From Candidatus Sumerlaeota bacterium (lineage in GTDB: Bacteria; Sumerlaeota; Sumerlaeia; Sumerlaeales; Sumerlaeaceae), in contig JAPLSQ010000058.1 in assembly GCA_026398535.1 (NCBI GenBank), positions 1-34,338 on the forward strand: a stretch of 34,338 bases of DNA, read 5' to 3'. The notes beneath the pieces were generated by a model that ran no database searches, was not told the DNA's origin, and saw only the letters and a program-made list of their open reading frames with translations. Below are positions 3 through 33,400 of the stretch, one piece after another. The position numbers and the translations under genes were made by a program. Position 1 is the stretch's first letter; each line of letters opens with the position of its first letter.

Positions 3-215
3 ATTCGCGTGCGCCTGCGCAATGACATAGCGGGCACGGTCGCGCGCGCGACGCTCTATTCGCCCGATAGCCGGTCAGCGAGTACGCCATCAGGCCGGTC
101 AGCGAGTACGCCATCAGGCGCGCAGGCACAACCACTCAATATCATGCGCCACCCCGATGGCGTGGAAATCACGATCCCCGAACTGAAAACCTATGTCGCG
201 ATACGATTGGAATAG
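3..215 (+). CDS. C-terminal end of a probable glycan-active protein (partial)
   Basis: The reading frame is open from the window edge and ends at TAG 213-215, so only the last 70 codons are visible. The segment ATLYSPD followed by GVEITIPELKTYVAIRLE looks like the C-terminal beta-sandwich that closes many glycoside hydrolases and related secreted proteins; this rests on general sequence style, not on a catalytic motif. Two tandem copies of the 24-bp repeat (71-94, 95-118) are inserted in frame and read as RSASTPSG twice. Without them the text runs LYSPDSAQAQPLNIMRHP without a break. The gene converges on the GH2 gene downstream, which fits a glycan-degradation locus. The exact family cannot be told from this fragment. 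Confidence 0.6.
   Translation: MRVRLRNDIAGTVARATLYSPDSRSASTPSGRSASTPSGAQAQPLNIMRHPDGVEITIPELKTYVAIRLE
71..94 (+). repeat. 24-bp dispersed repeat, copy 1 (in gene)
   Basis: Exact copy made of CCGGTCAGCGAG plus TACGCCATCAGG. It is the first of a perfect head-to-tail pair inside the partial gene at 3-215 and is read as RSASTPSG. The preceding GATAG resembles the GATAT found before copies at 288, 5459 and 7588. Confidence 0.95.
95..118 (+). repeat. 24-bp dispersed repeat, copy 2 (in gene)
   Basis: Exact copy joined directly to copy 1. The pair adds 48 bp, so the frame of the host gene is kept. Confidence 0.95.
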
Positions 216-287
216 CGGGGAAATTGCCTGTCGTGGCAGACAATCAAATCATCATTCTTCATGCTGGATAAGCTTGTCGACCGATAT

Positions 288-311
288 CCGGTCAGCGAGT
301 ACGCCATCAGG
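288..311 (+). repeat. 24-bp dispersed repeat, copy 3
   Basis: Exact copy preceded by CCGATAT, the extended 5' context shared with copies at 5459 and 7588. Confidence 0.95.
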
Positions 312-334
312 CGGTCAGCGAGTACGCCATCAGG
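312..334 (+). repeat. 24-bp dispersed repeat, copy 4 (lacks first C)
   Basis: A 23-bp copy joined to copy 3. The pair has a period of 23 rather than 24, so one base has been lost at the joint. This pair lies outside a gene, where the frame does not matter, whereas the in-gene pair at 71-118 keeps the exact 24-bp period. Confidence 0.9.
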
Positions 335-373
335 CTTGATCAGTTTGCACGCATCCTGAAGGGGCTTGTGATC

Positions 374-433
374 GAGCGCCGCGAAGGTCAGCCTATCGTT
401 CACCACAGGAGAACACGGACAAGCACGGACGAA
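374..433 (+). repeat. 60-bp junction repeat, copy A
   Basis: Matches 5577-5636 over 60 bp with three mismatches (bases 405-407); the first 31 bp are identical. The second half consists of CACGGAC-type decamers. Confidence 0.85.
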
Positions 434-476
434 ACGGACAACATGTTATTCTCCCTGCAACCGGCAGGCAGTTTGC

Positions 477-3400
477 TTAATCTTCCCGGATGATTTCAAC
501 CGGAAGCCTGATCTCGTTCGTGTTCCAGCCCTTGATGATCATTTCCGCCTTGTAACTCCCTTTTGGGGTCATCTCCCTGGCGGCAAGTTTCAACGGGATT
601 TCCGCCGTCTGGTCTGCCCAGAGAATCACATCATTGTCCGCATAATAGGCGAAGAATGGTTCAAGGCCGTCCTTGAAATCCAGCCTGCAATTGACCATCA
701 GCGCGTACGGGTTGCCGCTGTTGGTGATGGTCAGCTTTTCGCCCGACTCGCGATTTCCAGAAACCCGGATGCGCAACTCGTCGGGGGCGGCCGTTATCCG
801 GGTGTGAGGCGCCGACAGCATGGGCTGGAGCACCGGCATCGCCGTGCCGTAGAAATACTGGTTTGACGACAGCAGCTTCCCGTGTCCATCCCAAAGGCGA
901 AGGTCAAGGCTGAACACGTCATCATCCATGGCGGCGGGCGCCTGCCAGCGCACCGTGTCAATAGCGCCGCATGAATCCGACAGAAGCTGAGTCTTGAGGC
1001 TTTTCTGCCACAGGATTTTCCCATCAAGGGATCGTATGCTCATATCGAGTCTGCAACAGGGCGTCTCTTCAAGTCTGTCGTTGTGCGTCCAGATTTCCGC
1101 CTCGAACATGCTGCCAGGCCGCCACAGAATGGCGCTGTAGCGGGCGCTCACATGATGGTCCTCATAGGCGCGCGCCAGAAAGTAGAAAGCCGGCTTCGTC
1201 TCGCCGTACCAGTCCACGATGGCATCGCATGAAATGTTCGGCCATGGCTCGTCATACTGCCAGAAGCAGCAGCCTCCGGCCGGATGATACTTCATCCGGC
1301 GCATATGCTCGAGGCAGTAGCGCGTGCCCTCGGACTGGACGTACTGGTTCGCGTTCACATACGCCTGCGGGTCGCGCGGAACGCCAAACAGCGCCGCGAG
1401 GTTGTCCTCGTAGAGCCATGTCTCGAATCCGTCGTAACCGAGGATGCCCTTGTGATAGGCCCAACTGTTGTACAGGTTGAAGTGGGAGGATCGGCTGTCG
1501 GCGATTTTCACATAAGCCGCCTCCCATTCGCGGCCGTCGTTTGACACCTCGATCGTGTAATCAATCGGGATGTTATTCCAATATTTGCCCAGCCGGTCGC
1601 GGCTCCAGATGAATTTGCGGATGATGGCGGTCTTCGGCAACTCAATCTCAAACCACCCGGAATGGACTTCGTTGGAAACCCAGCAGCGGTGGTGGCCATA
1701 CTGGCCGTCGATGATATTGTCGGCGGCGCCAAACAGGGAATCCGGAACAGACGGCCATCTCCGTTTGATCTCGGCGGCTTTCAGCCGCTCGCTGGATGCT
1801 TTGATTTTTGCGCCCTTCTTCTTCAGCGCGAGGTTCTCGCCCGTCTCATCAACAATGTCGAAAGCATCAATGACCGGAAAACTGCCGGATGCTGCCGTGC
1901 GCCAGTTGTACAGCGCCCTTGCCTCGTAGGGGGTAACGTCCGTCCCGTCGGGCAGGCAGCAGTTGAAGATGTCGTTATAGGCCTTGCATGCGTTTTCCAC
2001 CCTGCTGATCGTCATGCGCACGTGTTTTGCCTTCACGGGTTTCGCGAGTGTGATCTCACAATAGGGGGGAACGCGTTCGGGTGGAAATTCCAATTCTTCG
2101 GGGGGCATGAACTTGCTCAAGGATTTCAGGCCGACCATGCCGGGGCAGCCGAACTCGCTCAGCATTGGGAGGTTCTGGCGGTATTTGTTGTAGATATCGT
2201 AATACCCTGGGAAACTGTACTCCCAGGGCGAATGCGTTTCTTGCCCCATGGGGGAGGTGTTCAAATAGCGTCTTGTCGGATCGATTCGGTTGCACACCTG
2301 TCCCAGCTTGATGAGCAACGGGTTGTCAGGATCGAAATTGAATTCATTGCCGCCCGCCCACTGGACGATGCTCGGATGGTTGATGATGTGCCTGACCATC
2401 CCTTCGGCCTCGATGCTGCAGTAGGCGTGGAGGTCTTCCTGCTCGGGGATGGCCTGGTTGGCCAGCGGGAATTCCTGCTGGAGCATGATGCCGTAACGGT
2501 CGCAAAAGTCGTAGAAGTCCTTCTTTTGTCGTCCCCCGCCGCCCCACATTCTCATGATGACGGATTTTGTGTCGGCGACGAGCCGGATGAGATGTTTGTA
2601 GCGTTCGCGTGTCATGGTGGCGGAGAGCTGGTCGGCGGGAACCCAGTTGATCCCGCGGACGAAGATGCGGCGGCCGTTGATCCGGAAAATCCACTCGGGC
2701 GTGGGCGGTTCCATTCCCGCTCCATTCTCGAAAATGATTTCGCGGAAACCGAATTGCTCGGTTCTGGCATCCGAAACCTTTTCACCCGCCGCTTGGCCAA
2801 TGCTCACCTCAGCCTGGTAGAGGGCCTGTTCGCCATATCCGTTGGGCTGCCAAAGACGGACATTCCCGATGGTTCCCTCCAGGGTTCGTTTATTGACGCC
2901 CTTTTCCAGCCTGACCGTTTCTGATGCGTGAAAAACCTGATTTCCGGTGTCGTCCTCGCACGCGACGACGTCCAATTCGTAATCGCCCGGCGCCGAGGCA
3001 TCAATCTCCGCGGTTACCTTAAACGATGCCGATTGATAAGGCGCTTCAACCTTTGGGATCAACTGCACATGCTTGATGCGGGCGGCGCCGGTGGCCACAA
3101 GGGTGACGTTTTCCCAGATGCCCAATTGTTCGAGCCAGAGCGACCAGTCGTACTCGTTGCCCACCGGCGACTTCATGGCCACGTTGTGATAGGCGCGGTC
3201 AATCAGCACAGCGAGATGGTTGGATTGCCCTGCCGGGCGGACATGACGGGTGATTTCAATCTCGAAGGGGCTGAATGTGCCGAGATGGTCGGCGATCTTC
3301 TCCCCGTTCAGCCACACATGGGAGGAGAAGTCGACACCCTCGAAGCAAAGCCATATCCGTTTGCCATTGAAATGGGCCGGTGTTTCGAAATCCCTTTTGT

Positions 3401-3635: not shown

Positions 3636-3729
3636 TGAATGCTCCTTAGATGTGGTTGAATGAACAGCCAGTCTGTTGGGCCTTTAACCGCCGAATGGCG
3701 GAGAGCGATGCGAAAGGCGGCCCTTTGAA

Positions 3730-3753
3730 CCGGTCAGCGAGTACGCCATCAGG
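3730..3753 (+). repeat. 24-bp dispersed repeat, copy 5
   Basis: Exact copy in the upstream region of the minus-strand GH2 gene. The repeat stays in plus orientation although the nearest gene is on the minus strand. Confidence 0.95.
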
Positions 3754-3870
3754 CCTGATAAAAAAGCAATGGTCATATCAATGCGTCACGCCAATCCGGG
3801 ATAGTGCAACAATTTTTCTGTAAATTTGAAAAAGCCATCAGTCAGCTCATTTTTGTTTTATCGTAATAAT

Positions 3871-3894
3871 CCGGTCAGCGAGTACGCCATCAGG
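3871..3894 (+). repeat. 24-bp dispersed repeat, copy 6
   Basis: Exact copy 97 bp upstream of the CDF start, preceded by TAATAAT. Confidence 0.95.
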
Positions 3895-3990
3895 AGAGAA
3901 ACATGTCATAAAATCAAGATGCGCCCGGATGGAACTGGTGAAACACTATGGCGTTGCTTTTTTCATCCGGTGCGGGTTAACAAGCGTGGC

Positions 3991-5448
3991 ATGACAGTAG
4001 AAATACCAAAAAACCGGTCAGCGAGTACGCCATCAGGTCTGGAAAAGCAGCATGCGGCGTTCGCGTCGGTCGTGTCGGCGGTCATTCTGACCGTCCTCAA
4101 GGGGATTGTGGGTTTCATGACCGGCAGCCTGGGCATTCTTGCCGAGGCGCTGCACTCGTTGCTTGATCTGGGGGCGGCCCTGATGACGTGGGCTTCGGTG
4201 AGTTATTCCGATCATCCCGCCGACACCGAACATCTTTACGGTCATGGCAAGATCGAGAATATTTCGGCCTTCGCCGAAACCTTTTTGTTGCTCATCACAT
4301 GCTTCTGGATCGGCTGGGAGGCGATCGCGCGCCTCATTGGCCAAAGCGCGCATCATGTGGAAGCCACGGTCTGGAGTTTCGTGGTGATGTTTATTTCAAT
4401 CGGTATTGACTGGTACCGCTCGCGCCGGTTGTACAAGGCGGCCAAGTTGCACCGCAGCCAGGCGCTGGAGGCCGATGCGCTGCATTTTTCGAGCGACATC
4501 CTGTCGTCCGCCGTGGTGATCGTGGGGCTTGTGGGCGTGAAGCTGGGTTATCCGCACGCGGACCCGATCGCGGCCCTGGGTGTTGCCGCATGGGTTGTGG
4601 TCATCAGCATACGTCTTGGTTTTCATGCGATCCAGGTGTTGCTTGACGCCGCCCCGCGCGACGCGCGCAACATGATCGCGCGCGCGGTCATGTCCATCGA
4701 CGGCATCCAGAGGGTTGCCAATGTGCGCGTACGCCAGTCGGGTCCGAACGCCTTTGCCGACATCAACGTGATCATGGATGGCGAACTTCACCTGCACGAG
4801 GTTCATCACCGGCTCGACTTGGCCGAGGACGCCGTCCGCAGTTTCATGCCGGACGCCGACGTCGTGGTGCACGCCGAACCCGACGACCTGTCGGCCAAAA
4901 GCCCCGAGATACTCGGCCGCGTGGCAGGCGTTCTGCGCGCGCTGGTCAAGGAGCAGGGCATACGTTACACTCGTCTGAGCCTTGTGGATCATGATGGGGG
5001 CACTGCGGCTCTTGTCGGGCTGGAATTTTCCCCGGGGCTGGCCTTGCGCGATGCGCGCGCCCGCGCCGAGGAGATTGAGGAGCTAATGCGGCGCAGGCTG
5101 CCGGAACTGGCCGAGGTTGTCGCGCACATTGATGCGGGCTGTTCCTATATGCGCAACGAGGCCGGAGAGCACGCGCAAACAGTCGCGCCTGCCGAAAGCG
5201 ATATCGAGCGCGAGGTGCTCAAGGTGCCGGGCGTTGTGGGCTGCCACGATGTCAACCTCAGCCCGTGGCCGCCCCCCAGCGCCGAGCTTTCCGTACCGCA
5301 GCATGCGCCGGGATTTCTGCTTTTCGTCCATGTCGCGCTCAACGGCGATGCCACCGTGGGGCAAAGCCATGATATCGCCGAGGCTGTTGAGCGCTCCATG
5401 CGCTATCGGTTCCCGCAAATCCAGCGGGTGCATGTGCATCAGGAATGA
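3991..5448 (+). CDS. Cation diffusion facilitator transporter with three C-terminal domains
   Basis: This 485-residue inner-membrane protein is a CDF-family divalent metal/proton antiporter. HxxxD pairs in TM2 (H55, D59 in AEALHSLLDLGA) and TM5 (H165, D169 in ADALHFSSDILSS) form the usual zinc site, and LYGHGKIENISAF after the second helix is a family hallmark. An HD-HD site suggests zinc or cadmium. Usual CDFs have about 300 residues and one cytoplasmic metal-sensing domain. Here I see three in a row (about 238-298, 322-385, 400-485), the last ending in VHVHQE. The ATG at 3991 is chosen because upstream residues look non-coding; no strong ribosome binding site is visible. A 24-bp repeat (4014-4037) adds RSASTPSG at residues 9-16; without it the start reads MTVEIPKNLEKQHAAF. 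Confidence 0.93.
   Translation: MTVEIPKNRSASTPSGLEKQHAAFASVVSAVILTVLKGIVGFMTGSLGILAEALHSLLDLGAALMTWASVSYSDHPADTEHLYGHGKIENISAFAETFLLLITCFWIGWEAIARLIGQSAHHVEATVWSFVVMFISIGIDWYRSRRLYKAAKLHRSQALEADALHFSSDILSSAVVIVGLVGVKLGYPHADPIAALGVAAWVVVISIRLGFHAIQVLLDAAPRDARNMIARAVMSIDGIQRVANVRVRQSGPNAFADINVIMDGELHLHEVHHRLDLAEDAVRSFMPDADVVVHAEPDDLSAKSPEILGRVAGVLRALVKEQGIRYTRLSLVDHDGGTAALVGLEFSPGLALRDARARAEEIEELMRRRLPELAEVVAHIDAGCSYMRNEAGEHAQTVAPAESDIEREVLKVPGVVGCHDVNLSPWPPPSAELSVPQHAPGFLLFVHVALNGDATVGQSHDIAEAVERSMRYRFPQIQRVHVHQE
4014..4037 (+). repeat. 24-bp dispersed repeat, copy 7 (in CDF gene)
   Basis: Exact copy near the start of the CDF transporter gene, read as RSASTPSG. Its length keeps the frame. Confidence 0.95.
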
Positions 5449-5458
5449 GGCCGGATAT

Positions 5459-5482
5459 CCGGTCAGCGAGTACGCCATCAGG
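5459..5482 (+). repeat. 24-bp dispersed repeat, copy 8
   Basis: Exact copy 11 bp after the CDF stop codon. With the preceding bases it forms the palindrome CCGGATATCCGG (5451-5462), so its 5' edge sits on a dyad. Confidence 0.95.
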
Positions 5483-5491
5483 CGTGAAACA

Positions 5492-5540
5492 ATGACAAAC
5501 ACGGACAAACAGGGACAAACACGAACAAACACAACACCGT
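5492..5540 (+). repeat. CACGGAC-type decamer array
   Basis: Imperfect tandem units of about 7-10 bp of the ACACGGACAA type follow the 24-bp repeat between the CDF and DUF6259 genes. The rest of the 199-bp spacer holds only repeats. Confidence 0.7.
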
Positions 5541-5576
5541 AATTGAGCACGGGGGATTCACGCATGTGTGCAACGT

Positions 5577-5636
5577 GAGCGCCGCGAAGGTCAGCCTATC
5601 GTTCACCCGCGGAGAACACGGACAAGCACGGACGAA
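5577..5636 (+). repeat. 60-bp junction repeat, copy B
   Basis: Second copy of the repeat at 374-433 (three mismatches). It ends just upstream of the DUF6259 gene start at 5648, so its decamers form the immediate leader of that gene. Confidence 0.85.
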
Positions 5637-5647
5637 CACGGACAACC

Positions 5648-7834
5648 ATGATCATAAAATTTCCGAATCATTCACACACATTTGAAATCGACCTGATGTG
5701 CGGGTCTTTGTTGCGCGCCATATATGATCCTGATGGCGGGAACTGGCTCGACGAGGATGCCGGCGAAACAGGGCTGTGGCAGATACGGTTCCGCGGACCG
5801 GACGGAACGGCGCCCGCAATGCGGCCCGCCAACGGGTATTTCATCGATGCACAGCCGCTTGCCGCGGATGACGACGCCTCCGGTTACGTGTTCCGCTGGC
5901 GGCTTACCCTGACCAAGAGGGATGAATGCGAGGTTCGGGTCATTGTCCGATCCGCGGACGCGCATAGTTTGTCATTGTGGAACCTTGAGATTGCACTGCC
6001 GCCCGGATGGTTTGTGACATCGGTTGATTTTCCCGTGCTGGCCAACATCCGGCTTCGCCCCGGGCTGAAAGCTGCGGTTCCTTCCGGCTGGGGGCTGGAG
6101 TATGATGCCGCGCCGGGTTTTGAGTATGAAGGTCACTATCCCTCCTGCCTTGCGGTGATGCAGTTTGTCGCGTTTTATCCGGTCAGCGAGTACGCCATCA
6201 GGACCGGCGGGAACGGGCTCTACATTGGGGCGCACGATCCCAATGCCTGCCTGAAAACATTTGGCATCAAGGTCTCGGCTAAAGCCGCGCGGTTTTCTGT
6301 CACTCATCCCGCGCCGCTTGCCGATCCGGGCGGTCTTTTCCGTCTGCCTTTTGACACCGCTATCGGCTGTTTTGCGGGCGGTTGGCACGGGGCCGCGCGG
6401 CTTTACCGCCCCTTCACTTTCACAACTCCGTGGGGCGGGGCGGAAGCCGCGGGACGCCGCGCTGCGCCACGCTGGCTCAGCGGCGCCGATCTGTGGCTGC
6501 GGCCCGACGGTTCCGCCGCGGACAATCTTGAGGTCACGAAGCGGGCGCTTGAGTATTTCGATTGTCCGACGGCGCTCCACTGGTATCGGTGGCATGTCAT
6601 CCCCTACGACACGCATTATCCTGAATATCTGCCCGCGCTTCCGGGCATTGCCGGCGCCATCGCGGAGCTTCGCGGGATTGGCGCGTCTGTCATGCCCTAC
6701 ATCAATGGACGGTTGTGGGATCCCGCAAGCGCAAGCTGGAGCGCCGAGGACGCGGCTGGGTCGGCTGTCCGGCAGGAGAATGGCGAGGCATACACGGAGA
6801 TTTACGGCTCAAAGGTTTCAAACAATGTCATGTGCCCCTTCACGCGCCAATGGCAGCGCAAGGTGGCCGATGTGGCGCGCGATGTGGCGCGCGAGCTCGG
6901 TGTGGACGGCATTTACATCGACCAGATCGGCGCGGCGCCGGGTGTGGCATGCCATAACGCGGCGCATGGCCATCCGCCGGGCGGTGGCAGTTTCTGGCAC
7001 GAAGGCTATCGCGCGCTGCTTGACACTGTCAGGCGAGAACACGACGCCGAGTTTGCGCTCACCACGGAGGAAAACGCCGAGTGCTGGCTGGACCAGTTCG
7101 ACGGTCTGCTCGTTGTCAACACGCCCACGGACGGCGAGCCCATCCCCCTGTTCCCCGCGGTTTATTCGGGGCGCGCGCTGACGATCGGTTTTCAGTATTT
7201 TCCGCCTGATGACATCGAGCGCTCACTTCCCTTCCGCCTGAAAATGGCGCGGTGTTTCCTCTGGGGCGCGCAGCTTGGCTGGATTCAGCCCGCGCGCATC
7301 ATGGCGCCCGGCGCGGCACGCGAAGCCCGATATCTCAGGAATCTCGCGCATACGCGCCGTCACGCGCGCCGCTATTTTTTGTCGGGGCATTTTCTGGGTG
7401 TTGCTGATGTGCGCGGCGGCAATTCCATTGTCAGCGGCCGGGCAAGCGGAGCCTTTGGCGGCAGTTACATGATTTCCGTTCCGCCGGTTCTTGGCTCGGT
7501 GTGGGAATCGCGGGATGGCTCGGTTGCCCTGATGATGGTCAACCACACGGATGAGCCGCATGCCGTGGTGGTTCAGGCGCCCGATATCCGGTCAGCGAGT
7601 ACGCCATCAGGCGCGATGGCCGCATCACATGGCGCGCGCCTGTGCGCGGCGCTCCACACGCACGAGGGTTTTATTAAAAACATCAATGTTGATCCGTTAG
7701 CGATCAGGCTCGATGTGCCGGCGGCCGAGGCGATCATGCTGGAATTCGCCGATGATGCAGGAGAACACGGACGAACACGGACAACCACGGACGAAGAACG
7801 AGGCGGCGGCCTGCGGATGTTCTTCCATGCTTGA
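5648..7834 (+). CDS. DUF6259-type TIM-barrel protein, probable glycan hydrolase
   Basis: The 728-residue protein resembles the DUF6259 group of glycosidase-like barrels: a beta-sandwich N-terminal half (about 1-260), a barrel with WLSGADLWLRPDG, MPYINGRLWD, DGIYIDQIGAAPGVACHN and TTEENAECWLDQFDG, and a C-terminal beta domain. D in YIDQ and E in TTEEN are plausible catalytic acids, by analogy only. No signal peptide is seen. Two 24-bp repeats are inserted in frame: PVSEYAIR at residues 178-185 and IRSASTPSG at about 647-655, in different codon phases. Removing the first restores FVAFYTGGNGLYIGAHDP. From about 7759 the C-terminus is written by CACGGAC-type repeat (EHGRTRTTTDEERGGGL), so the native stop was probably overrun. 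The start is the ATG directly after the upstream repeat; no clear ribosome binding site is seen. Confidence 0.85.
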   Translation: MIIKFPNHSHTFEIDLMCGSLLRAIYDPDGGNWLDEDAGETGLWQIRFRGPDGTAPAMRPANGYFIDAQPLAADDDASGYVFRWRLTLTKRDECEVRVIVRSADAHSLSLWNLEIALPPGWFVTSVDFPVLANIRLRPGLKAAVPSGWGLEYDAAPGFEYEGHYPSCLAVMQFVAFYPVSEYAIRTGGNGLYIGAHDPNACLKTFGIKVSAKAARFSVTHPAPLADPGGLFRLPFDTAIGCFAGGWHGAARLYRPFTFTTPWGGAEAAGRRAAPRWLSGADLWLRPDGSAADNLEVTKRALEYFDCPTALHWYRWHVIPYDTHYPEYLPALPGIAGAIAELRGIGASVMPYINGRLWDPASASWSAEDAAGSAVRQENGEAYTEIYGSKVSNNVMCPFTRQWQRKVADVARDVARELGVDGIYIDQIGAAPGVACHNAAHGHPPGGGSFWHEGYRALLDTVRREHDAEFALTTEENAECWLDQFDGLLVVNTPTDGEPIPLFPAVYSGRALTIGFQYFPPDDIERSLPFRLKMARCFLWGAQLGWIQPARIMAPGAAREARYLRNLAHTRRHARRYFLSGHFLGVADVRGGNSIVSGRASGAFGGSYMISVPPVLGSVWESRDGSVALMMVNHTDEPHAVVVQAPDIRSASTPSGAMAASHGARLCAALHTHEGFIKNINVDPLAIRLDVPAAEAIMLEFADDAGEHGRTRTTTDEERGGGLRMFFHA
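6179..6202 (+). repeat. 24-bp dispersed repeat, copy 9 (in DUF6259 gene)
   Basis: Exact copy in codon phase 0, read as PVSEYAIR between FVAFY and TGGNGLYIGAHDP. Confidence 0.95.
7588..7611 (+). repeat. 24-bp dispersed repeat, copy 10 (in DUF6259 gene)
   Basis: Exact copy starting at the third codon base, preceded by CCCGATAT. Its excision leaves VVVQAPDIAMAASHG in frame. Confidence 0.95.
7759..7813 (+). repeat. Decamer array forming a protein C-terminus
   Basis: CACGGAC-type decamers followed by CGAAGAACGAGGCGGCGGCC, a block also found at 12551-12570 and, altered, near 9823 and 19827. Here it lies inside the DUF6259 reading frame. Confidence 0.75.
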
Positions 7835-7860
7835 TTTCCGGTTGCGGCGGAAATGATATT

Positions 7861-7890
7861 CACCACAGAGACACGGAGAAAAGCGGAAAG
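7861..7890 (+). repeat. CACAGAGACACGGAGA-type repeat upstream of sdhA
   Basis: An octamer-like variant of the junction repeats between the DUF6259 stop and the flavoprotein start. It brings purine-rich AAAGCGGAAAG close to the start at 7900. Confidence 0.6.
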
Positions 7891-7899
7891 ACGATTATC

Positions 7900-9741: not shown

Positions 9742-9780
9742 CAGGGACACCGTCAACTACTTCGGCGGACAACCACGGAC
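9742..9780 (+). repeat. 39-bp convergent-junction repeat, copy A
   Basis: Matches 12503-12541 with two mismatches. Both copies lie between the ends of convergent genes and run into CACGGAC decamers and a CCGTCAATTCA block that overlaps the facing stop codon. Confidence 0.85.
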
Positions 9781-9782
9781 AA

Positions 9783-9808
9783 GCGGGCGGGACGCCCGCG
9801 CTCCCAGG
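9783..9808 (+). repeat. 26-bp hairpin repeat, copy A
   Basis: A perfect 7-bp stem (GCGGGCG and CGCCCGC) with a GGA loop, followed by GCTCCCAGG. The other copy (21608-21633, one mismatch) lies inside a pseudopilin gene. Here it could help end transcription between sdhA and the facing gene. Confidence 0.85.
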
Positions 9809-9863
9809 CACGGACAACCACGGACGAAGAACGAGCCCCCCCCTGCGGCGGCCCCCCGTCAAT

Positions 9864-11041: not shown

Positions 11042-11074
11042 CACGGACAAGCACGGACAAACACAGACAACGAG
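11042..11074 (+). repeat. CACGGAC-type decamer array
   Basis: Three to four imperfect decamers (CACGGACAAG, CACGGACAAA, CACAGACAAC) between the response regulator and purA. Confidence 0.7.
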
Positions 11075-11079: not shown

Positions 11080-12471
<1,392 letters not shown>

Positions 12472-12502: not shown

Positions 12503-12541
12503 CAGGGACACCGTCAACGACTTCGGCGGACAAGCACGGAC
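12503..12541 (+). repeat. 39-bp convergent-junction repeat, copy B
   Basis: Second copy of the repeat at 9742-9780, again between convergent genes (purA and the deoxyhypusine-synthase-like gene). Decamers and CGAAGAACGAGGCGGCGGCC (12551-12570) follow; GAGGC-ggcg-GCCTC (12559-12572) can fold into a small hairpin that might act as a two-way terminator. Confidence 0.8.
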
Positions 12542-12575
12542 GAACACGGACGAAGAACGAGGCGGCGGCCTCCCG

Positions 12576-17490: not shown

Positions 17491-17533
17491 TCATAAAGCG
17501 TCAGCAAGAAGGAGAACACCACAGAGGCACGGA
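17485..17533 (+). repeat. Stop-codon-associated repeat, copy 2 (49 bp)
   Basis: Identical over 49 bp to 22982-23030 and over its first 24 bp to 9718-9741. It begins with the last codon and stop of gmhA. Confidence 0.9.
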
Positions 17534-17577
17534 CAACCACGGACAACCATGGACAACCATGGACAACCATGGACAAC
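17531..17577 (+). repeat. Tandem decamer GGACAACCAT, about five units
   Basis: Near-perfect period of 10 bp (GGACAACCAC once, GGACAACCAT three times, then GGACAACATC), merging into the next 24-bp repeat. It is the most regular decamer array in the window and would be prone to slippage. Confidence 0.85.
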
Positions 17578-17583: not shown

Positions 17584-17607
17584 CCGGTCAGCGAGTACGC
17601 CATCAGG
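17584..17607 (+). repeat. 24-bp dispersed repeat, copy 11
   Basis: Exact copy preceded directly by CATCAGG (17577-17583), the last seven bases of another copy. That suggests a collapsed tandem pair. The 108 bp from here to the next gene show nothing else recognisable. Confidence 0.95.
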
Positions 17608-18641: not shown

Positions 18642-20180
18642 ATGAAACTTTTTATTTGTCTCACACTCGCCACGGCGATCATCAGCGGTTGCGGTGAATC
18701 GGACAATGACATTGTGGCCGTGCAATCGCCGACGCCCGAGCCGACGAAGGCGTTGACGCCCGCGCCCGCCGCCACGGTCGCCGTCTCCAGGACAAAACCA
18801 GGATGGCAACCCGCGCCCGCGCCGGAGATCAAAACCGCGGATGCCGCGCCAAAGGAAGATGTCATGCCCGAGGCTCTGCGCGGCCGGTTTGATCAGTGGT
18901 TCACACCCAAAGACGCCGCAGACAAAATTGAGGGATTCGGGGCGCAGGAACGTTTTTCCGGCGTGGAAAAAGACAACAATCTTTCCTGCCGCTGGTCGGC
19001 GCCAAAATCATGGTTCACACTCAAGGATAATGGCCGCGCCAGCACCATCACGCTCAACTTCATGTTCGCGCCGATGACGGGCAAGGATTACCAGCCCGAC
19101 CTGAAATTCTTTGTTAACCGCGGCAAGACCCCTCAGAATCAGCCCATCAAAGGACCTGATTACCGGCCTGGTTCGCTGGATATCGAACTGCCCGTGCCGG
19201 AAGGCAACGAGCCTGTCATGATCGGCTGGACAGTCAAGGGAGTCAATCCTGCCAAGCTGGAAATGGGACCTGACGACCGCGACCTTGGGATTCGGGTCAA
19301 CTGGATCGGAGTGAAACACAACGACATGCCCGAGGCGCTGGCCGGGCGTTTTGACCAATGGCACGCGCCCCGGGATATCGCGGGAAAAATCGAAGGATTT
19401 GAGAATTCCGAGCGATTCTTCAGCGAGGAAAAGGATGCCGTGGGACCTTTCCGCTGGTCCAAGCCCAAATCGTGGATCACGATCAAAGACGGCGGCAAGG
19501 CAAGCACGATCACACTGTGCTTCACTTATACGCCCATGATCGGCACGGATTATCAGCCCGATCTGAAAGTCTTCCTCGACCGCGGCAATACGCCGAAAAA
19601 CACCCCGGTCAAGGGGCCAGAGTTCCGGCAGGGACCTATCGAAATGGATTTGCCGGCGCCAGAAGGCAGCGAGCCGCTCATGCTGGGGTGGATGGTCAAG
19701 GGCGTCAATTTCGCCAAGCTTAACAAGAGCGCCGATGACCGTGATCTGGGACTGAGAATCAATTGGATTGCCCAGGAGACCGGTCAGCGAGTACGCCATC
19801 AGGCGGACAACCACGGACAAGCACGGACGAAGAACGAGGCCGCGGCGGATGCGTCTGAGAAAAAGGACGTTTCAAAAGACAAAGACAAACCCGATGATGC
19901 CACGGCACCCCCCATACCCTCTGGCGCGATCGGCGCTCTCCCGGAGCCCGGGACGGCCGCCAAGGAACCTGTGACCGAGTCCTCCGACACGCAGAAAAAG
20001 GACGAGGAAACCGAAACGGCCGCGCCCAAAGACAAAGAAAAGGATGCAAAAACAGGGGCAAAGAAGGAAACACCGGCCGCCAAGGGCAAACAAACCGCCC
20101 GTGAAACACCGGGGCGCGACGCCTCCAGCGCTAAGCCCCGCCATTCGACCAAGGCCACATCACAACCGATCGGGTTCTGA
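18642..20180 (+). CDS. Lipoprotein with two tandem beta domains and a repeat-derived linker
   Basis: The 512-residue protein starts with a lipoprotein signal (MKLFICLTLATAIISGC, lipid on C17), then a Pro/Ala/Thr linker. Two copies of a domain of about 150 residues follow (about 74-222 and 228-377). Each has MPEALxGRFDQW, ERF, RW, PKSW, STITL, DYQPDLK, RGxTPxNxPxKGP, PEGxEPxMxGWxVKGVN and DDRDLGxRxNWI, so an internal duplication is clear. I do not recognise the domain; it may bind ligands or a partner at the envelope. At residues 380-399 a 24-bp repeat and CACGGAC decamers are read as TGQRVRHQA and DNHGQARTKNE, leading into a charged Lys/Asp/Glu-rich tail. The start is supported by GAGGGAAG before the ATG. 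It converges on the D-lyxose isomerase gene. Confidence 0.85.
   Translation: MKLFICLTLATAIISGCGESDNDIVAVQSPTPEPTKALTPAPAATVAVSRTKPGWQPAPAPEIKTADAAPKEDVMPEALRGRFDQWFTPKDAADKIEGFGAQERFSGVEKDNNLSCRWSAPKSWFTLKDNGRASTITLNFMFAPMTGKDYQPDLKFFVNRGKTPQNQPIKGPDYRPGSLDIELPVPEGNEPVMIGWTVKGVNPAKLEMGPDDRDLGIRVNWIGVKHNDMPEALAGRFDQWHAPRDIAGKIEGFENSERFFSEEKDAVGPFRWSKPKSWITIKDGGKASTITLCFTYTPMIGTDYQPDLKVFLDRGNTPKNTPVKGPEFRQGPIEMDLPAPEGSEPLMLGWMVKGVNFAKLNKSADDRDLGLRINWIAQETGQRVRHQADNHGQARTKNEAAADASEKKDVSKDKDKPDDATAPPIPSGAIGALPEPGTAAKEPVTESSDTQKKDEETETAAPKDKEKDAKTGAKKETPAAKGKQTARETPGRDASSAKPRHSTKATSQPIGF
19780..19803 (+). repeat. 24-bp dispersed repeat, copy 12 (in lipoprotein gene)
   Basis: Exact copy starting at the second codon base, read in the third possible phase as GQRVRHQ. 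CACGGAC decamers (19804-19842) follow directly and are also translated. Confidence 0.95.
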
Positions 20181-20231: not shown

Positions 20232-20801
20232 TCAATCGCTGAGAAGGCGTTCGGTCGGCGGCTCATCTTCATCGATTTCCTCAAAACGTCCGACATCCTC
20301 GTTGACGAAGACGTTGTCGTGCAGATCGTCATTGGCCGTGGAGACCTCGCCGATGATGGCGTACTCGCTGACCGGCCAGAATTCATGATAGACGCCCGGG
20401 AAAAGCGTTATGCGCTCGCCCGCAAGGAGGTAAACGATGAAGTTGCTTTCGACGCGGCGCTCCTTGCCGTTGACAAGCACGCGCACGGGGCCGTCGCCGG
20501 GATTGTCCTTCTCATCAAGGCCAACCAGCCGGATGGCAAAGGTGCCGGCGCGGCAGATGATGTCCTCCTGCTTGCGCCGGTGTGTGTGAAGGGGCGTGAG
20601 CTGCCGGTGGCGCGCAAACATGACCTTTTCGCAATATTCGGGACGTTCGGCAAGATTGACAAGCACCAGTCCGTATTTCTCGAAATTGCCCAGTCCGAAT
20701 CCCGTGACGTCCCACCTTGGATTGGGGGGCAGATGCCAATGGTGGCTTTCAAAGGCCAGCCGCGCATCGGCTATGGCCGCGTTGATCTCGGAACGCTTCA
20801 T
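20232..20801 (-). CDS. D-lyxose ketol-isomerase (cupin)
   Basis: The 189-residue protein matches the D-lyxose isomerase family, metal-dependent cupins that interconvert D-lyxose and D-xylulose and often act on D-mannose. Likely metal ligands are H72 and H74 (PLHTHRRKQED), E79 and H139 (GVYHEFW). The C-terminal block GEVSTANDDLHDN followed by VGRFEEIDEDEPP is a family hallmark. I choose the ATG at 20801 because AAAGGAG lies ten bases upstream and homologues begin MKRS. Residues 143-149 read PVSEYAI and are encoded by 22 bp identical to the dispersed 24-bp repeat. By memory of family members this segment is similar in length to the usual one, so it may be native. The gene is divergent from the pseudopilin operon. 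Confidence 0.9.
   Translation of the reverse strand: MKRSEINAAIADARLAFESHHWHLPPNPRWDVTGFGLGNFEKYGLVLVNLAERPEYCEKVMFARHRQLTPLHTHRRKQEDIICRAGTFAIRLVGLDEKDNPGDGPVRVLVNGKERRVESNFIVYLLAGERITLFPGVYHEFWPVSEYAIIGEVSTANDDLHDNVFVNEDVGRFEEIDEDEPPTERLLSD
20354..20375 (-). repeat. 22-bp match to the dispersed repeat inside the D-lyxose isomerase gene
   Basis: The minus strand carries the first 22 bases of the repeat exactly; the gene then continues TCGG where the repeat has GG. It is the only reverse-strand copy in the window and the only one in a minus-strand gene. Confidence 0.9.
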
Positions 20802-20893
20802 GCTACCGGTACTCCTTTTCATTTTGTTCAATATGTCAATACACTAAAAGATAATCTCGCGCAAAGGCGCGAAGAACGCAAAGGAGAACACGG

Positions 20894-22951: not shown

Positions 22952-22975
22952 CCGGTCAGCGAGTACGCCATCAGG
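22952..22975 (+). repeat. 24-bp dispersed repeat, copy 13
   Basis: Exact copy that begins at the base after the GspJ-like stop codon. Confidence 0.95.
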
Positions 22976-23047: not shown

Positions 23048-24493
23048 ATGCAGGACAAGTCCACAGTCAAACAGCTTGCTAACCAGGAATACAAGTACGG
23101 CTTCGTCACCGACATCGAGGCCGACGCCATTCCCAAGGGACTCAACGAGGACGTTATCCGAATGATCTCGGAGAGGAAGAACGAGCCTGATTTCATGCTC
23201 GAATGGCGATTGAACGCCTACCGCCACTGGATCACGATGACCGAGCCGAAGTGGGCCAATGTGAAATATCCGCCGATTGACTACCAGGACATCTGCTACT
23301 ATTCGGCGCCAAAGGCGCACGGGCAGGGGCCCAGGAGCCTCGACGAGGTTGATCCGCAGCTTATCGCGGTCTACGAGAAGCTGGGCATCCCTCTGCGCGA
23401 GCGGGAACTGCTGGCCGGCGTGGCCGTGGATGCCGTGTTTGACAGCGTGTCCGTGGCGACGACATTCAGGGAGAAACTATCGGAACTGGGCATCATATTC
23501 TGCCCGTTTTCCGAGGCCGTGCTCAATCAGCCCGATCTCGTCAAACAGTATCTCGGTTCTGTCGTTCCTTACACGGACAATTATTTCGCCTCGCTCAACT
23601 CGGCCGTGTTCAGCGACGGTTCGTTCTGCTATGTGCCAAAGGGCGTCCGCTGCCCGATGGAGCTGTCGACTTACTTTCGCATCAACGCGGCCAAGACGGG
23701 CCAGTTCGAGCGCACGCTCATCATCGCCGGCGAGGGCTCGTATGTGAGCTACCTCGAGGGGTGCACGGCGCCCATGCGCGACGAAAACCAGCTCCACGCC
23801 GCCGTCGTCGAGCTCGTCGCCCGCACCAATGCCACCATCAAATATTCCACCGTGCAGAACTGGTATCCGGGCAGCAAGGACGGCAAGGGCGGCATCTATA
23901 ACTTCGTCACCAAACGCGGCAAGTGCCAGGGCGCGAACTCGAAAATCTCGTGGACGCAGGTCGAAACCGGCTCGGCGATCACATGGAAGTATCCCGGCTG
24001 CATCCTGCTCGGCGACAATTCCGTGGGCGAGTTTTACTCCGTGGCCATGACCAACAATTATCAGCAGGCCGACACCGGCACAAAGATGATCCACATGGGC
24101 AAGAACACGCGCAGCACCATCGTGTCGAAGGGCATCTCGGCGGGCTTCGGGCAGAACACTTACCGGGGCGCGGTGAAGGTTCTGCGCAGGGCGGAGGGCG
24201 CGCGGAATTTTTCGCAGTGCGACTCGCTGCTCATAGGCGACCGATGCGGCGCGCACACATTCCCTTACATCGAGACGCAGAACTCCTCAGGCGTCGTCGA
24301 GCACGAGGCATCAACCTCCAGGATTGGCGAGGACCAGCTCTTCTACTGCCAGCAGCGCGGACTCTCGCGGGAGGACGCTGTCAACATGATCGTCAACGGG
24401 TTCTGCAAGGAGGTCTTCCGCGAACTGCCCATGGAGTTTGCCGTCGAGGCGCAGAAATTGCTGGGGATCAGCCTGGAAGGCAGCGTGGGATGA
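23048..24493 (+). CDS. sufB: Fe-S cluster assembly scaffold SufB
   Basis: The 481-residue protein is the scaffold subunit of the SufBCD complex, on which iron-sulfur clusters are built in the cytoplasm. Its N-terminal part ([32 protein letters not shown]) and the beta-helix core ([30 protein letters not shown] [51 protein letters not shown]) are typical, and the length is usual. It opens a sufB-C-D-S-U-T operon. GGAG seven bases upstream of ATG 23048 comes from the junction repeat. Its last 33 bases are repeated after sufT (28842-28874). Confidence 0.97.
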
Positions 24494-24516
24494 CAAATAC
24501 GGACAAACACAGACAA
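24494..24516 (+). repeat. CACGGAC-type decamers between sufB and sufC
   Basis: Short run (ATACGGACAAACACAGACAA) that begins at the sufB stop and leads into a truncated 24-bp repeat. It widens the sufB-sufC gap to 56 bp in an otherwise tightly packed operon. Confidence 0.6.
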
Positions 24517-24534
24517 GCAGCGAGTACGCCATCA
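24517..24534 (+). repeat. 24-bp dispersed repeat, truncated copy
   Basis: Only the central CAGCGAGTACGCCATCA remains; both ends are lost or were never present. It lies in the sufB-sufC spacer. Confidence 0.8.
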
Positions 24535-24549
24535 ATCACGGATACGATA

Positions 24550-25326: not shown

Positions 25327-26700
25327 ATGGTCGAGGTCATGAGCGATAAGCCGGTCAGCGAGTACGCCATCAGGGTTTACCTGGCCGATCACGAACGGTC
25401 GGACAAGGCGGTTGAGCATCACATCCCCCCCCGCATACGCGCTCTGCGCAGGAGCGCGTTGGAGCGTTTCTGTGCGCTGGGCTTCCCGTCGGCCAAGCGG
25501 GAGGAATGGCGGTTCACCAATGTCGCCCCGCTGGCCAACACGCCTTTCCATCTTGCCAGGCAGGCCGGCGCGGGACATTTGCCGCCGGGAGCGCTTGACA
25601 AGGCTGGCGTGAAGGGATTGGGCGCGCGCCGGCTTGTTTTTCTGAACGGGCGCTATGACACCAGGCTGTCGTCGCCCGGCGAAATGCCAGCGGGCGTCCG
25701 CATCGGCAGTCTGATGGCGAACCTTGCTCATGCCGATCCGCAGGCAGAGGGGCGCCTTGGCGAATCCGCGCCGTGGCACGATCATTCCTTTGTGGCGCTT
25801 AACACGGCGTTTATCGGGGACGGCGCGTTCATCCATGTCCCCAGGGGCGTCGTCATCGAGGAACCCATTCTGCTGATCTTCATCTCTATTGCAGCGGAAC
25901 ATGCCGTCGTCTCGCATCCGCGCAACCTGATTATCGCGGAGCGCGAGAGCCAGGTCTGCGTGGTTGAAAGCTATTACGGCCCCTCGGGCGAAACTTATTT
26001 CACGAATGCCGTGACGGAAATCTTTGCCGGCGAGGGCGCCCGCGTCGGGCATTACAAGCTCCAGCGCGAGGGCGACCGTGCATGGCACATGGCCACGGTC
26101 GGCATCCGCCAGGAGCGCGACAGCGCGTGCGAGGCGCATTCGGCCGCGTTCGGCGCCGGCTTTTCACGCAATGATGTGACGGCGGTTCTCGGCGGCGCGG
26201 GCTGCTCCGCCGTGCTCAACGGCCTGACGATGATCAGCGGCAGCCAGTTCGCCGACAACCACACGCGCATCGACCACGCACAACCCCGCTGCGAAAGCCA
26301 GGAGCTCTACAAGGGCATCTTTGACGAGCGGGCGCGCGGCGTGTTCAACGGGCGCATCATCGTGCGCCAGGACGCACAGAAAACAAGCGCGATGCAAACG
26401 AACAAAAACCTCCTGCTGACCGGCACGGCGATGGTCAACACCAATCCCCAGCTCGAAATTTTCGCCGACGACGTGAAATGTTCACATGGCGCGACGGTGG
26501 GGCGCATTGACGATGAGCACATCTTCTATCTGCGCGCGCGCGGCATTTCATTTGACGAGGCGCGCAGCATCATGACCTATGCGTTCGCCAACGATGTCAT
26601 TCGGCGCATCAAGCCCGCGCCCCTTCGCGTCCTGTGCGAGCAGATCGTGCTCGCGGTCCAGGATGTGCCGGCAGATTTCATTGTCACGGAGGAAAAATGA
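25327..26700 (+). CDS. sufD: Fe-S cluster assembly protein SufD
   Basis: The 457-residue protein is the SufB paralogue in SufBC2D. FPSAKREEWRFTNVAPL near the N-terminus and the C-terminal FADDVKCSHGATVGRID, YLRARGISFDEARSIMTYAF are family hallmarks; NNHTRIDHAQPRCES-type NHTRIDHAQP is also present. A 24-bp repeat (25351-25374) adds PVSEYAIR at residues 9-16, in the flexible N-terminal part; without it the start reads MVEVMSDKVYLADHERSDK. ATG 25327 is used; ATG 25339 is possible, but its GAGG is too close. The stop overlaps the sufS start (ATGA). Confidence 0.95.
   Translation: MVEVMSDKPVSEYAIRVYLADHERSDKAVEHHIPPRIRALRRSALERFCALGFPSAKREEWRFTNVAPLANTPFHLARQAGAGHLPPGALDKAGVKGLGARRLVFLNGRYDTRLSSPGEMPAGVRIGSLMANLAHADPQAEGRLGESAPWHDHSFVALNTAFIGDGAFIHVPRGVVIEEPILLIFISIAAEHAVVSHPRNLIIAERESQVCVVESYYGPSGETYFTNAVTEIFAGEGARVGHYKLQREGDRAWHMATVGIRQERDSACEAHSAAFGAGFSRNDVTAVLGGAGCSAVLNGLTMISGSQFADNHTRIDHAQPRCESQELYKGIFDERARGVFNGRIIVRQDAQKTSAMQTNKNLLLTGTAMVNTNPQLEIFADDVKCSHGATVGRIDDEHIFYLRARGISFDEARSIMTYAFANDVIRRIKPAPLRVLCEQIVLAVQDVPADFIVTEEK
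25351..25374 (+). repeat. 24-bp dispersed repeat, copy 14 (in sufD)
   Basis: Exact copy in codon phase 0, read as PVSEYAIR close to the SufD N-terminus. Confidence 0.95.
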
Positions 26701-28433: not shown

Positions 28434-28441
28434 TCCCCGCC

Positions 28442-28786: not shown

Positions 28787-28841
28787 TCGCGCCCCCCCTT
28801 AGCAAGGCTGCGCGCGCCGGACGGACTGGACAGAGCGCCCA

Positions 28842-28874
28842 TGGGGATCAGCCTGGAAGGCAGCGCGGGATGAC
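28842..28874 (+). pseudogene. Remnant of a sufB 3' end
   Basis: These 33 bp match the sufB end (24462-24494) with one mismatch and read GISLEGSAG then stop, against GISLEGSVG in SufB. The preceding CCCATG also occurs in sufB (PMEFAVEAQ), so the remnant looks like a second sufB end with an internal deletion of about 29 bp. The rest of the sufT-MFS spacer holds a poly-C stretch (28790-28797) and CACAGAGACGCAGAGA-type repeats (28895-28925). Confidence 0.75.
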
Positions 28875-28960
28875 GCGACAAAAGACAAAGATTTCACCAC
28901 AGAGACGCAGAGAACACGGAGAAAAGCGGTTTTTCATGATCGGAACCGGCCTTGCCTGAT

Positions 28961-30205: not shown

Positions 30206-30487
30206 CAGTGAAATTACAATGAGCAAATTTTAACCATCGGGAGATTGTCACGATATGTCACGCCTCCCTGCTCTGCTGATCCTTTGGGGCACTTCGTGTA
30301 ACCGTCATTTTTCATGTCCTTTTTGTCTTTTTGGAAACCGTGGGGGGAGTGTCCAAATGTTCCTTGACGGTCACCTGCGGTCCAACAAACGATGAATGAT
30401 GAACGGGTTGCCATGTGCGCCCGTATGAAACGACAGAATAAAAAATGCCCGATGATTCGGCAAATCACCGGTGCGGGAGACGTAATA
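30206..30487. other. Intergenic region, no gene seen
   Basis: The 282-bp spacer upstream of the propeller protein is more AT-rich than its surroundings. It contains TTGACG (near 30364) without a good -10. I see no known riboswitch and no dispersed repeat. A leader for the secreted protein gene is likely here. Confidence 0.4.
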
Positions 30488-33400
30488 ATGATGAGCGCCA
30501 TTTATCGTCCGGCTGCCATTGCGGCATTCCTGTTTCTTGCATTATTGATTAATCCGGTCAGCGAGTACGCCATCAGGTCTGTATGGGGGTCAACGGCATC
30601 GGGTCCCACACCGCCTTCAAACGCGGCTGTTGCGGTTGCCCCGTTGCCCGGTTCGGGTGATGGAAAGATTCATATCATTCCCGCGTTGTCGCCGCCCTCG
30701 GTGAAGGACGGACAGAAGCTCACGGTTCAGGCTGTAGTGAAGGCCGCGGCGGGCGTGCGCGAGGTTTCGGCCGATCTCGGCGGCGTGGAGCGGATTGTCC
30801 TGCGCCCTGACGCCAAACTTGGCGCCGCGAACAGCGACGGCACTATCGGAGCTTACAGCGCGGAGTGGACGGCGCGCGGACTCGAGAAGAAATCCTATCC
30901 GGTTGTCATCCGTGTGACGGACAAAACCGGGCATGTGTTTGAGGACCGCTCTCTGTCGTTTTCCGATCCGATCGCCGGCAATTCGGCCGTTGGCAGTCCG
31001 ATTTATCCCAACGGGGGTATGCGGTGGGTGAGCGAAGCGGGCCGCGAGGAACTTATCTATTGCGGCGTTGTGGACGCCGGCCGCGGCTATGCCTACCTTG
31101 GCACGTTCACCACCCCCGGGCGCGTGGTCAAGGTGGCGCTGGGTTATGGCGCCCAGATCCCGAAGCGTGTCGCGGCGATCACGCTCGAAAAGGATGAGGA
31201 TTATTTGATCAGCGCGGTGATCGACACGGCGCGCGGTTACGCCTGTTTTGGGACCGGCACGTCGCCCGGGCGCGTGGTCAAGATGGCGCTGGGCGCCGGT
31301 GACGCGCCGCCCGCGCGCGTTGGCGCCGTCATGCTTGATGCGGGCGAGGATATGCCGCGCAGCGCGGTGCTTGACGCGGGCAACAACTATGCCTGCTTCG
31401 GCACGTTGACTGTGCCCGGGCGTGTCGTCAAGGTGCGGCTGAACGACGGCAACACCTCGCCCTCGCGCGTTGGCGCCATCACTCTCAACACGGGCGAGGA
31501 TTTCCTGCGATGCGCCGTCATTGACGAAATTCAAGGCTATGCCTGGTTTGGGACGGGCACAACCGCCGGGCGTGTCGTCAAGGTGATGCTCGGGGCCGGC
31601 GCCGATCCTCCGGCGCGTGTGGGCGCAGTCACGCTTGACGCTGGCGAGGACTACCCTGATTGCGCGGTCATTGACACGGCGAACGCGCTTATGTGCTTCG
31701 GCACATCGACGGCGCCCGGACGCATCGTCAAGGTTCAGTGCGGAGGATACGGCGCGCCGCCCGCCCGCGTCAGCGCGATGACGCTTCTCCCAACGGAAAG
31801 CTTTCTTGAGAGCGCCATTATTGACCCGGCCAACAATTTGGCGTGGTTCGGGACGGGGGGATTCAGCCCGCTCACCGGGGCGTCAGTCGTCAAGGTCATG
31901 CTCACACCGGGAGTCCTGCCGCCTGTGCGGCTGGGTTCCGTCATCCTCTCCAATGACGAAAATAATGCGCGTTGCGCGATGATCGACACGGCGCACGATT
32001 ATGCCTATTTCGGCACACTGGGCATCCCCGCGCAGGTGGTGATGGTCGGCCTTGGCACGGATGGCGTTCCCTTCAACCGCGTGGGCGCGCTCACGCTCAA
32101 CGCGCTCAATATGACGGATGAAAATTTTTTATGCGCGGCCATCGACACCGTTCACGGCTATGCCTACTTTGGCACGGACACCCTTCCCGGCAAGGTCGTG
32201 AAGGTTTCGCTGGGCGGAGCGGGCGCGGTTCCGCGGCGCGCAGGGGCGTGCATTTTTCAGAATGACGAGGATTTTCTCAGTTGCGCGGTGATCGACCCCG
32301 CCGCGGGATTCGCATGGTTCGGAACGGGGACCATCCCCGGGCGCGTGATCAAAGTGGAACTGGGCGCCGGGGACGCGCCGCCATCGCGCGTGTCCGCCCT
32401 CGAGCTTAACGCGGACGAGGATTTCCCGCGGTGCGGCGTCATCGACACGACAAATCATTACGCCTATTTCGCAACCTACACCCAGCCGGGACGCGTGGTG
32501 AAGGTGAACCTTGCGGGAGCGGCGCCCACGCGGACAGGCGCCTGCGCATTCAACACGACCGAGGACTTTCCGGCGTGCGGCGTCATTGACCCGTCGTCGG
32601 GCTATGCCTGGTTCGGGACGAGCACTTCGCCGGGGCAGGTGGTCAAGGTTGCGCTGGGCGCCGGCGCCGCGCCACCGTCGCGCACGGGAGTGGTCACCCT
32701 CGATCCCGGCGAGGACAACCTGCGATGCGCTGTCCTGAACAAAGGCCTCAACTCCATTCTTTTTGGCGCGAACACATTGCCGGGTACGGTGATCAAAGTG
32801 GGCACGGGTGAAGGCGGCGTCCCGTTCTGGAAACTGGGCGTCACGTGGTTTCCCAGCGGCGAGGATTTCGTCGTTTCGGCCGCGACCGACGACAGCCCAT
32901 TCGCTTATTTCGGAACGAACACATCCCCAGGCAAGATTGTGAAGGTGTCGTTCGAGCCGGACTTTCAGCAACCGGTGCGCGAGGGCTCGATTACGCTCGG
33001 GCCCGGCGAAAATCTGCTGTTTACCGCATTGGCCGATCCTGCCACCGGGCAGGCATGGTTTGGAACCTATACCGTCCCCGGCAACATCCACAGGGTCGGG
33101 CCTCATGAAAAGGGATGGGTCAAGGGCAGTCTCATGCTCATGCCCCAGGCCGGAACGGTGGATGACGTCTTTTTCTATACGCATGCGTCCACGGGCAAAG
33201 TCCGTCTGGCGATTTACGACATGACGAACAATCCCCTGCGCTGGCAATCGGCCCCCCTGGATATGACTGTGCCGAACGCATGGGTGACCGTGCCCATCAG
33301 CTCGGGCGCGCCCAGCCACATTGTTCTGGCGCCAGGCCTGTACTGGCTTGCGTGGCAGACCGACACAACAGCCAGCGCGCCGAGTTATACGAAGGGCGCT

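Follow-up and report, generated by a model that had tools for sequence, protein, structure and literature searches.

How a sequence of only 24 bases came to lie in near-identical copies, within genes and between them, is the question raised by contig JAPLSQ010000058.1 of assembly GCA_026398535.1 (Candidatus Sumerlaeota bacterium), of which positions 1 to 34,338 were analysed and are called the window here. The draft genome to which it belongs amounts to 4.22 Mb in 145 contigs and is 92.7% complete. The explanation that we favor, and to which we give about an even chance of being right, makes the 24-mer a tiny insertion unit, dispersed in many copies, that began as a fragment of an isomerase gene, from which its core would derive. 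In this view an enzyme acting in trans is predicted to insert it in single-stranded form at the replication fork, on the 3' side of a short target and leaving no duplication.

Copies of the unit in the window and in the genome

A pattern search for the 24-mer CCGGTCAGCGAGTACGCCATCAGG found 14 exact plus-strand copies in the window, where 100 shuffles gave a chance expectation of 0, and one further plus-strand copy of 23 nt (312-334) in which the first C is missing. The fifteen plus-strand copies counted in a preliminary description of this DNA, together with one degenerate and one truncated copy, were all recovered, and the repeat is real. The plus-strand units are as follows.

71..94, plus strand: 24-nt unit that opens a 2-unit array; exact match
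95..118, plus strand: 24-nt unit, second in this 2-unit array; exact match; the overlapping end of contig C131 has 3 units
288..311, plus strand: 24-nt unit that opens an array of two units spaced 23 nt; exact match
312..334, plus strand: 23-nt unit without the first C, second in the array starting at 288
3730..3753, plus strand: 24-nt unit, intergenic; exact match
3871..3894, plus strand: 24-nt unit at the beginning of a predicted reading frame; exact match, gene calls
4014..4037, plus strand: 24-nt unit within a cation-efflux reading frame; exact match, gene calls, profile match
5459..5482, plus strand: 24-nt unit, intergenic, ahead of decamer repeats; exact match
6179..6202, plus strand: 24-nt unit within a DUF6259 reading frame, read as PVSEYAIR; exact match, profile match
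7588..7611, plus strand: 24-nt unit in the same DUF6259 reading frame as the copy at 6179, in another frame; exact match
11144..11167, plus strand: degenerate copy with 4 mismatches
17584..17607, plus strand: 24-nt unit behind decamer repeats and a partial CATCAGG; exact match
19780..19803, plus strand: 24-nt unit ahead of decamer repeats; exact match
22952..22975, plus strand: 24-nt unit immediately 3' of the stop codon of a predicted gene; exact match
24513..24536, plus strand: 5'-truncated copy with 6 mismatches, the last 17 core bases intact
25351..25374, plus strand: 24-nt unit close to the start of a SufB/SufD-like reading frame; exact match, profile match
30554..30577, plus strand: 24-nt unit; exact match

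The draft genome holds 163 copies with at most 3 mismatches, and the reversed control of the 24-mer gave 0 copies in the same genome. A genome-wide count by strand, which the preliminary description had proposed, yields 108 contig-forward and 55 contig-reverse copies, the orientation of the contigs being arbitrary. Sixty other genomes, seven of them from the same family, contained a single match with 3 mismatches, in a genome of another phylum, and none besides; among the 61 genomes searched the 24-mer is private to this one, the nearest kin compared being of the same family and none of the same genus. Loci were analysed in 1.66 Mb of stretches, picked mainly because they contain copies, in which we found 166 copies at 126 loci, with tandem arrays at 26 of these; left out of the target and locus counts given below are the source copy and two loci that duplicate others at a contig overlap. 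The copies are strongly clustered, with 82 loci in five contigs totalling 403 kb. Over the 161 copies of the first 1.0 Mb, the interior positions 2-22 show 13 mismatches (approximately 0.4%), position 23 shows 24, position 24 shows 12 and position 1 shows 19, mostly at the joints of 23-nt arrays. The unit consequently has a precise 5' end and a variable final dinucleotide, mostly GG. The recent spread that had been proposed for the repeat is supported by the few interior mismatches and by its presence in one only of the 61 genomes searched.

Likely source in a D-lyxose isomerase gene

One copy in the window, overlooked until now, lies on the minus strand (20375-20352) and matches the unit at 22 of 24 bases. 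It is the sole copy there without an A-rich flank, it ends in TC and not in GG, and its direction is opposite to that of the others.

20232..20831, minus strand: D-lyxose isomerase gene containing the source segment (PF07385, E 3.7e-49; 3kmh, E 2e-33)
20354..20375, minus strand: likely source, the 22-nt core CCGGTCAGCGAGTACGCCATCA, native codons for PVSEYAI, with CTGG before and TC after

The gene encodes a product of 199 aa, whose alignment to solved isomerases runs through the PVSEYAI segment, and the core is identical at 22/22 bases to the codons for these residues within ...YHEFWPVSEYAIIGEVSTANDD... of the gene. The spacing through the segment is equal in 120/120 isomerase proteins among the matches listed (2618 were found; the 120 include the one studied here), and the residues themselves are also kept in many of them. 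Nucleotide comparison with the nearest five isomerase genes relied on a motif script that read two, those of the relatives G005 and G003, which share 19/22 and 17/22 core bases; two more distant isomerase genes share 9 and 7 of the 22. Because the listed isomerases share the spacing and the genes of relatives share core bases, the PVSEYAI segment can be taken, from these comparisons, as ancestral coding sequence, and the isomerase gene is the likely source of the 22-nt core. The reverse case, in which the unit was inserted into the isomerase gene, does not fit the homologues. In the gene GG directly precedes the core, so that 24 contiguous bases of the gene, circularly permuted, give the 24-mer, an arrangement expected by chance in approximately 1 in 12 cases. 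The statement that the unit encodes nothing must be withdrawn, since this minus-strand copy codes for PVSEYAI in the isomerase and the copies lying inside reading frames add 8 residues.

The 20-nt core was also met in public collections, in six genome_contigs stretches and one viral_contigs stretch, once in each. The surroundings of these seven matches are unlike and they were judged coincidence; over the 90 codons shown, 4/7 keep an open frame that reads VSEYAI and 3/7 do not.

Insertion, target and junctions

The dispersed copies are best understood as insertions. The gene for a formylglycine-generating enzyme (FGE) on contig C136 encodes 16 residues between two conserved motifs, at a place where 71 of the 83 other listed FGE homologues having the motif have 8, so that by comparison with its homologues it has gained exactly 24 nt (8 residues). 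A RecD2 gene also contains the insert, in a loop whose length varies among homologues, which makes it a poor test of insertion. The nearest named homologues of this helicase are from Candidatus Sumerlaeaceae, with 65-66% identity.

At the 78 loci of unique context, i.e., those away from short tandem repeats, the sites entered have much in common: 65 have no C in the five upstream bases (17% at random), which are A-rich, position +1 is C or T in 75% and position +4 is G in 77%. The target preference is therefore an A-rich sequence without C on the 5' side, followed by Y-N-N-G (A-rich^YNNG); the strict 9-nt motif fits 14/125 loci, compared with 0.14% at random. No sign of target duplication was seen, with 3-nt matches at 0/78 loci and 2-nt matches at 3/78 versus 1.6 in shuffles, which upholds the preliminary description on this point. 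Genes are hit and yet under-represented among the insertion loci, 66/124 of which lie inside reading frames, versus a coding fraction of 91% by our rough gene calls. Decamer or heptamer repeats adjoin 39 of the 117 distinct flank pairs. Empty sites within the genome come, among the pairs listed, from the decamers and from a dispersed repeat of approximately 75 bp (AAAAACTTTTACACGGAGAACC...), copies of which either contain the 24-mer at one and the same point or lack it.

C9:1465, C63:19268, C89:11808 and C108:11383: filled copies of the ~75-bp repeat, with empty copies on other contigs

The unit had been described as a weak palindrome, and the fold of the bare sequence is indeed weak (-2.8 kcal/mol, z -1.2), one natural copy with its flanks reaching z -2.4.

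An assembly or adapter artefact might be suspected in a draft metagenome assembly in which a short sequence recurs identically and two contig ends overlap at copies. We regard it as extremely improbable: the 20-nt core turned up only in the seven public stretches mentioned above, the insertions follow a target motif in one orientation, and RecD2 and FGE with the insert (P0241 and P0121) are also encoded by other database contigs, of 41,228 and 73,760 bases versus 124,755 and 63,972 here.

Tandem arrays

Spacing is uniform inside each array, at 23 or 24 nt, with single doublets at 22 and 26, and this holds for 9/9 arrays with at least three units. The variant last dinucleotide occurs in 22/99 single copies, in 7/24 last units of arrays and in 1/37 earlier units, and in the seven arrays whose last unit has it, none of the earlier units does. 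Simple duplication of one unit leaves this pattern of endings unexplained; entry of new units at the 5' junction, or several laps of a circular template, would explain it. A copy's own 5' junction (A-rich^CCGG) would still fit A-rich^YNNG and so re-create the target, in which case new copies could enter 5' of old ones, the oldest coming last. The contig ends of C59 and C131 (window 1-363; C131 1-387) overlap with two base differences and with two versus three units. These contigs are probably neighbours, and the one-unit difference suggests a recent change, two similar sites being the alternative.

The arrays also bear on target-primed reverse transcription, in which the 3'-OH at a nick behind the A-rich stretch would prime the copying of an RNA of the opposite strand. 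The fixed 3' end of this RNA would give the precise CCGG junction, its ragged 5' end would account for the variable final bases, and a circular template for the arrays of several laps. Such copying accounts for one precise and one variable end, for variants confined to the last unit of arrays, for spacing uniform within arrays and differing between them, and for the circular permutation of the gene bases (GG before the core). We hold it to be unlikely, given that the arrays stop after whole units and not at random points and that the draft genome itself has no match to the reverse transcriptase profile RVT_1, an absence that also sets the 24-mer apart from target-primed retroelements. Tentatively, and again with a low probability in our estimation, the gene stretch (GG plus the 22-nt core) might have been released as a tiny circle and become mobile, one or several laps of it being copied into one strand at A-rich^YNNG sites at the replication fork. 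If so, no smaller mobile element would have a known birthplace, and the process would be a new kind of insertion, coupled to the fork, by which the decamers of this genome spread too.

Direction and replication

Where a contig has two or more inserted loci, these share the majority direction in 111/114 cases, the three dissenting ones being on C51 (two) and C63 (one). The single direction claimed by the preliminary description accordingly holds within contigs for inserted loci and fails for the minus-strand copy in the isomerase gene. Direction is one-way even though target-like sites are equally supplied by the two strands (2330 and 2402), and it does not heed the strand of genes, since seven loci on contig C2 face plus inside minus-strand reading frames. 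Among the 18 contigs in which GC skew is clear, direction corresponds to the G-rich strand in 15 (44 loci versus 5; C63, a tie, is left out of the contig count), and by local skew the G-rich strand carries 105 copies and the C-rich strand 47. Direction is thus moderately tied to replication via GC skew, and the replication-linked strand bias that had been raised as a possibility agrees with the skew to that moderate extent. The absence of duplication, the use of one strand, the one precise end and the position 3' of a short target are together what is expected of single-strand insertion at forks, and the one-way direction may come from entry into a single strand there, in the simplest case the lagging-strand template while it is exposed.

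Near-identical copies, consistent direction within contigs and strong clustering would also suit a functional polar site, KOPS-like or an uptake sequence, with its direction kept by selection. This is very unlikely in our judgement, as the 24-mer is private to one genome, forms tandem arrays and is inserted inside conserved genes, and an unrelated decamer repeat has the same direction. DNA uptake sequences originate through mutation and retention rather than through insertion. The comparison with them made in the preliminary description is not supported, since the only copy tested within a conserved gene, that of FGE, is a 24-nt gain and not a mutated site.

Points against insertion at the fork and search for an enzyme

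Several results weigh against the explanation that we favor. The uniform spacing of the arrays suggests some later tandem amplification, or a circular template. The four filled copies of the ~75-bp repeat have an altered 5' junction, with TTTTACA changed to TTTAA, TTTA or TTTCGGT; either a few bases were altered during some insertions or the unit arrived with other short pieces. With regard to replication, C67, C89 and C125 disagree with the GC skew, skew corrected for gene strand agrees in only 18/29 pieces (11/13 where it exceeds 2 standard errors), and clear skew is missing from C59, C109 and C51, which hold 58 loci and are among the five densest contigs; there the link with replication has consistency of direction as its one support. 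The decamers fit the skew less well (12 contigs versus 3; 45 loci versus 18). Lastly, searches of the 92.7% complete draft gave 0 matches to the Y1 transposase profile (Y1_Tnp, PF01797; control positive in 5 genomes), 0 to RVT_1 (control positive in 3 genomes) and none to Argonaute (Piwi). The incompleteness of the draft leaves room for a missed enzyme. In the search with the Y2_Tnp profile the control itself gave no match. An IS110-type match on contig C117 was considered and set aside, no copy of the unit being present within the 2,544 bases examined there.

Comparison with known systems

The small dispersed repeats (SDR) of Nostoc and its relatives, reportedly described by Elhai et al. in 2008, are 21-27 nt long and often lie beside short tandem repeats or other copies; some SDR families share a secondary structure, and we know of no enzyme for them. 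By description the 24-mer is like SDR in size (a 22-nt core in a 24-nt unit), in having many near-identical copies in one clade (163 here, and one match with 3 mismatches in 60 genomes), in adjoining short tandem repeats (39/117 flank pairs) or other copies (arrays at 26 of 126 loci), and in that no enzyme was found for it either. Unlike SDR, it has an identified source gene, a 9-nt target preference and one direction within contigs, and it has no conserved fold (z -1.2 alone, -2.4 with flanks). We file it as a variant of the small-dispersed-repeat kind, to which a birthplace, a target and a polarity are added. The Nostoc work is cited in PMC3116915.

Passages of PMC3733652 and PMC3116915 describe REP/REPIN elements with RAYT transposases as dispersed units of 20-40 nt, the REP tags being GTAG or CGTC (PMC3733652). 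The 24-mer is also a short dispersed unit; unlike REP, it has no GTAG or CGTC tag, forms a weak hairpin and is not arranged in inverted pairs, and the draft holds no RAYT-type Y1 transposase (0 PF01797 matches). Elements of the IS200/IS605 type enter on the 3' side of a short target and do not duplicate it. The 24-mer resembles them in this and in a strand preference linked to replication, and differs in being 24 nt long, in its lack of subterminal hairpins and in the lack of a transposase in the draft. Preference of IS200/IS605 for the lagging-strand template is stated in PMC6006769. That the 24-mer is a non-autonomous derivative of such a single-strand transposon, of IS200/IS605 or REP/RAYT type, whose transposase is missing from the draft, would agree with this mode of insertion and with the Y1 genes present in 3/8 family genomes. 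We find it quite doubtful, as the draft genome itself has no Y1_Tnp match, the unit has neither a stable hairpin nor a GTAG or CGTC end, and its core consists of native gene codons.

Rickettsia palindromic elements, of approximately 100-150 nt, insert in protein genes and keep the frame. The 24-mer also enters protein genes and leaves the frame unbroken; it differs in its 24 nt and weak structure. The TAACTGA direct repeats of Beggiatoaceae are described in passages of PMC4679880 as 7-nt units, mostly oriented to the start codon and suspected to be mobile. They are, like the 24-mer, many short dispersed units, also in tandem; unlike theirs, its direction ignores gene strand. For Kiritimatiellota and Sumerlaeota, our literature search showed no work on dispersed repeats among the papers listed.

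Very short mobile repeats had already been described in cyanobacteria; for the 24-mer the likely source is a gene of the host, and the target preference can be read from 78 sites of unique context. As a whole, the interpretation given in the preliminary description is supported in part; it mentions neither a source gene nor a target motif, nor that the last two bases vary. If our reading is true, approximately 22 nt suffice for a roughly 160-fold dispersal that includes protein genes, and an enzyme able to insert so short a sequence would be of interest both for genome evolution and as a tool.

Decamer and other repeats

The decamer repeats (CACGGACAAC type), both tandem and dispersed, run in the same direction as the 24-mer in 269/283 copies; as they share its direction, whatever sets the polarity is not specific to the 24-mer. 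They gave 199 matches in this genome versus 0 in seven family genomes.

Window 404-443, 5490-5656, 7756-7805, 9799-9838 and 11042-11071: decamer repeats
Window 12525-12564, 17518-17577, 19802-19841 and 24488-24527: further decamer repeats

A search for other gene pieces dispersed alike revealed, beyond the decamers, no second family of this size and a few repeats of 20-75 nt (286 clusters). In approximately 348 kb sampled from five relatives, no 16-mer had as many as 4 copies in G001, G004 or G005, and G002 and G003 had small clusters of other repeats. A 33-nt end of a reading frame (window 24462-24494) recurs with one difference in a spacer 4.4 kb off (28842-28874) and could represent a further piece of a gene that was copied. 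A 60-nt repeat, 95% alike between window 374-433 and 5577-5636, adjoins copies of the 24-mer and decamers. Immediately ahead of CGGACAACC, the spot occupied elsewhere by the 24-mer, stands a degenerate unit GGACACCGTCAACTACTTCGG, possibly from an earlier family of this sort.

Window 9742-9780 and 12503-12541; C109:44084; C13:16760: degenerate unit GGACACCGTCAACTACTTCGG

At window 31062-32753, a 177-nt repeat is present eight times, mostly at 150-nt spacing, within a predicted plus-strand reading frame of 1507 aa.
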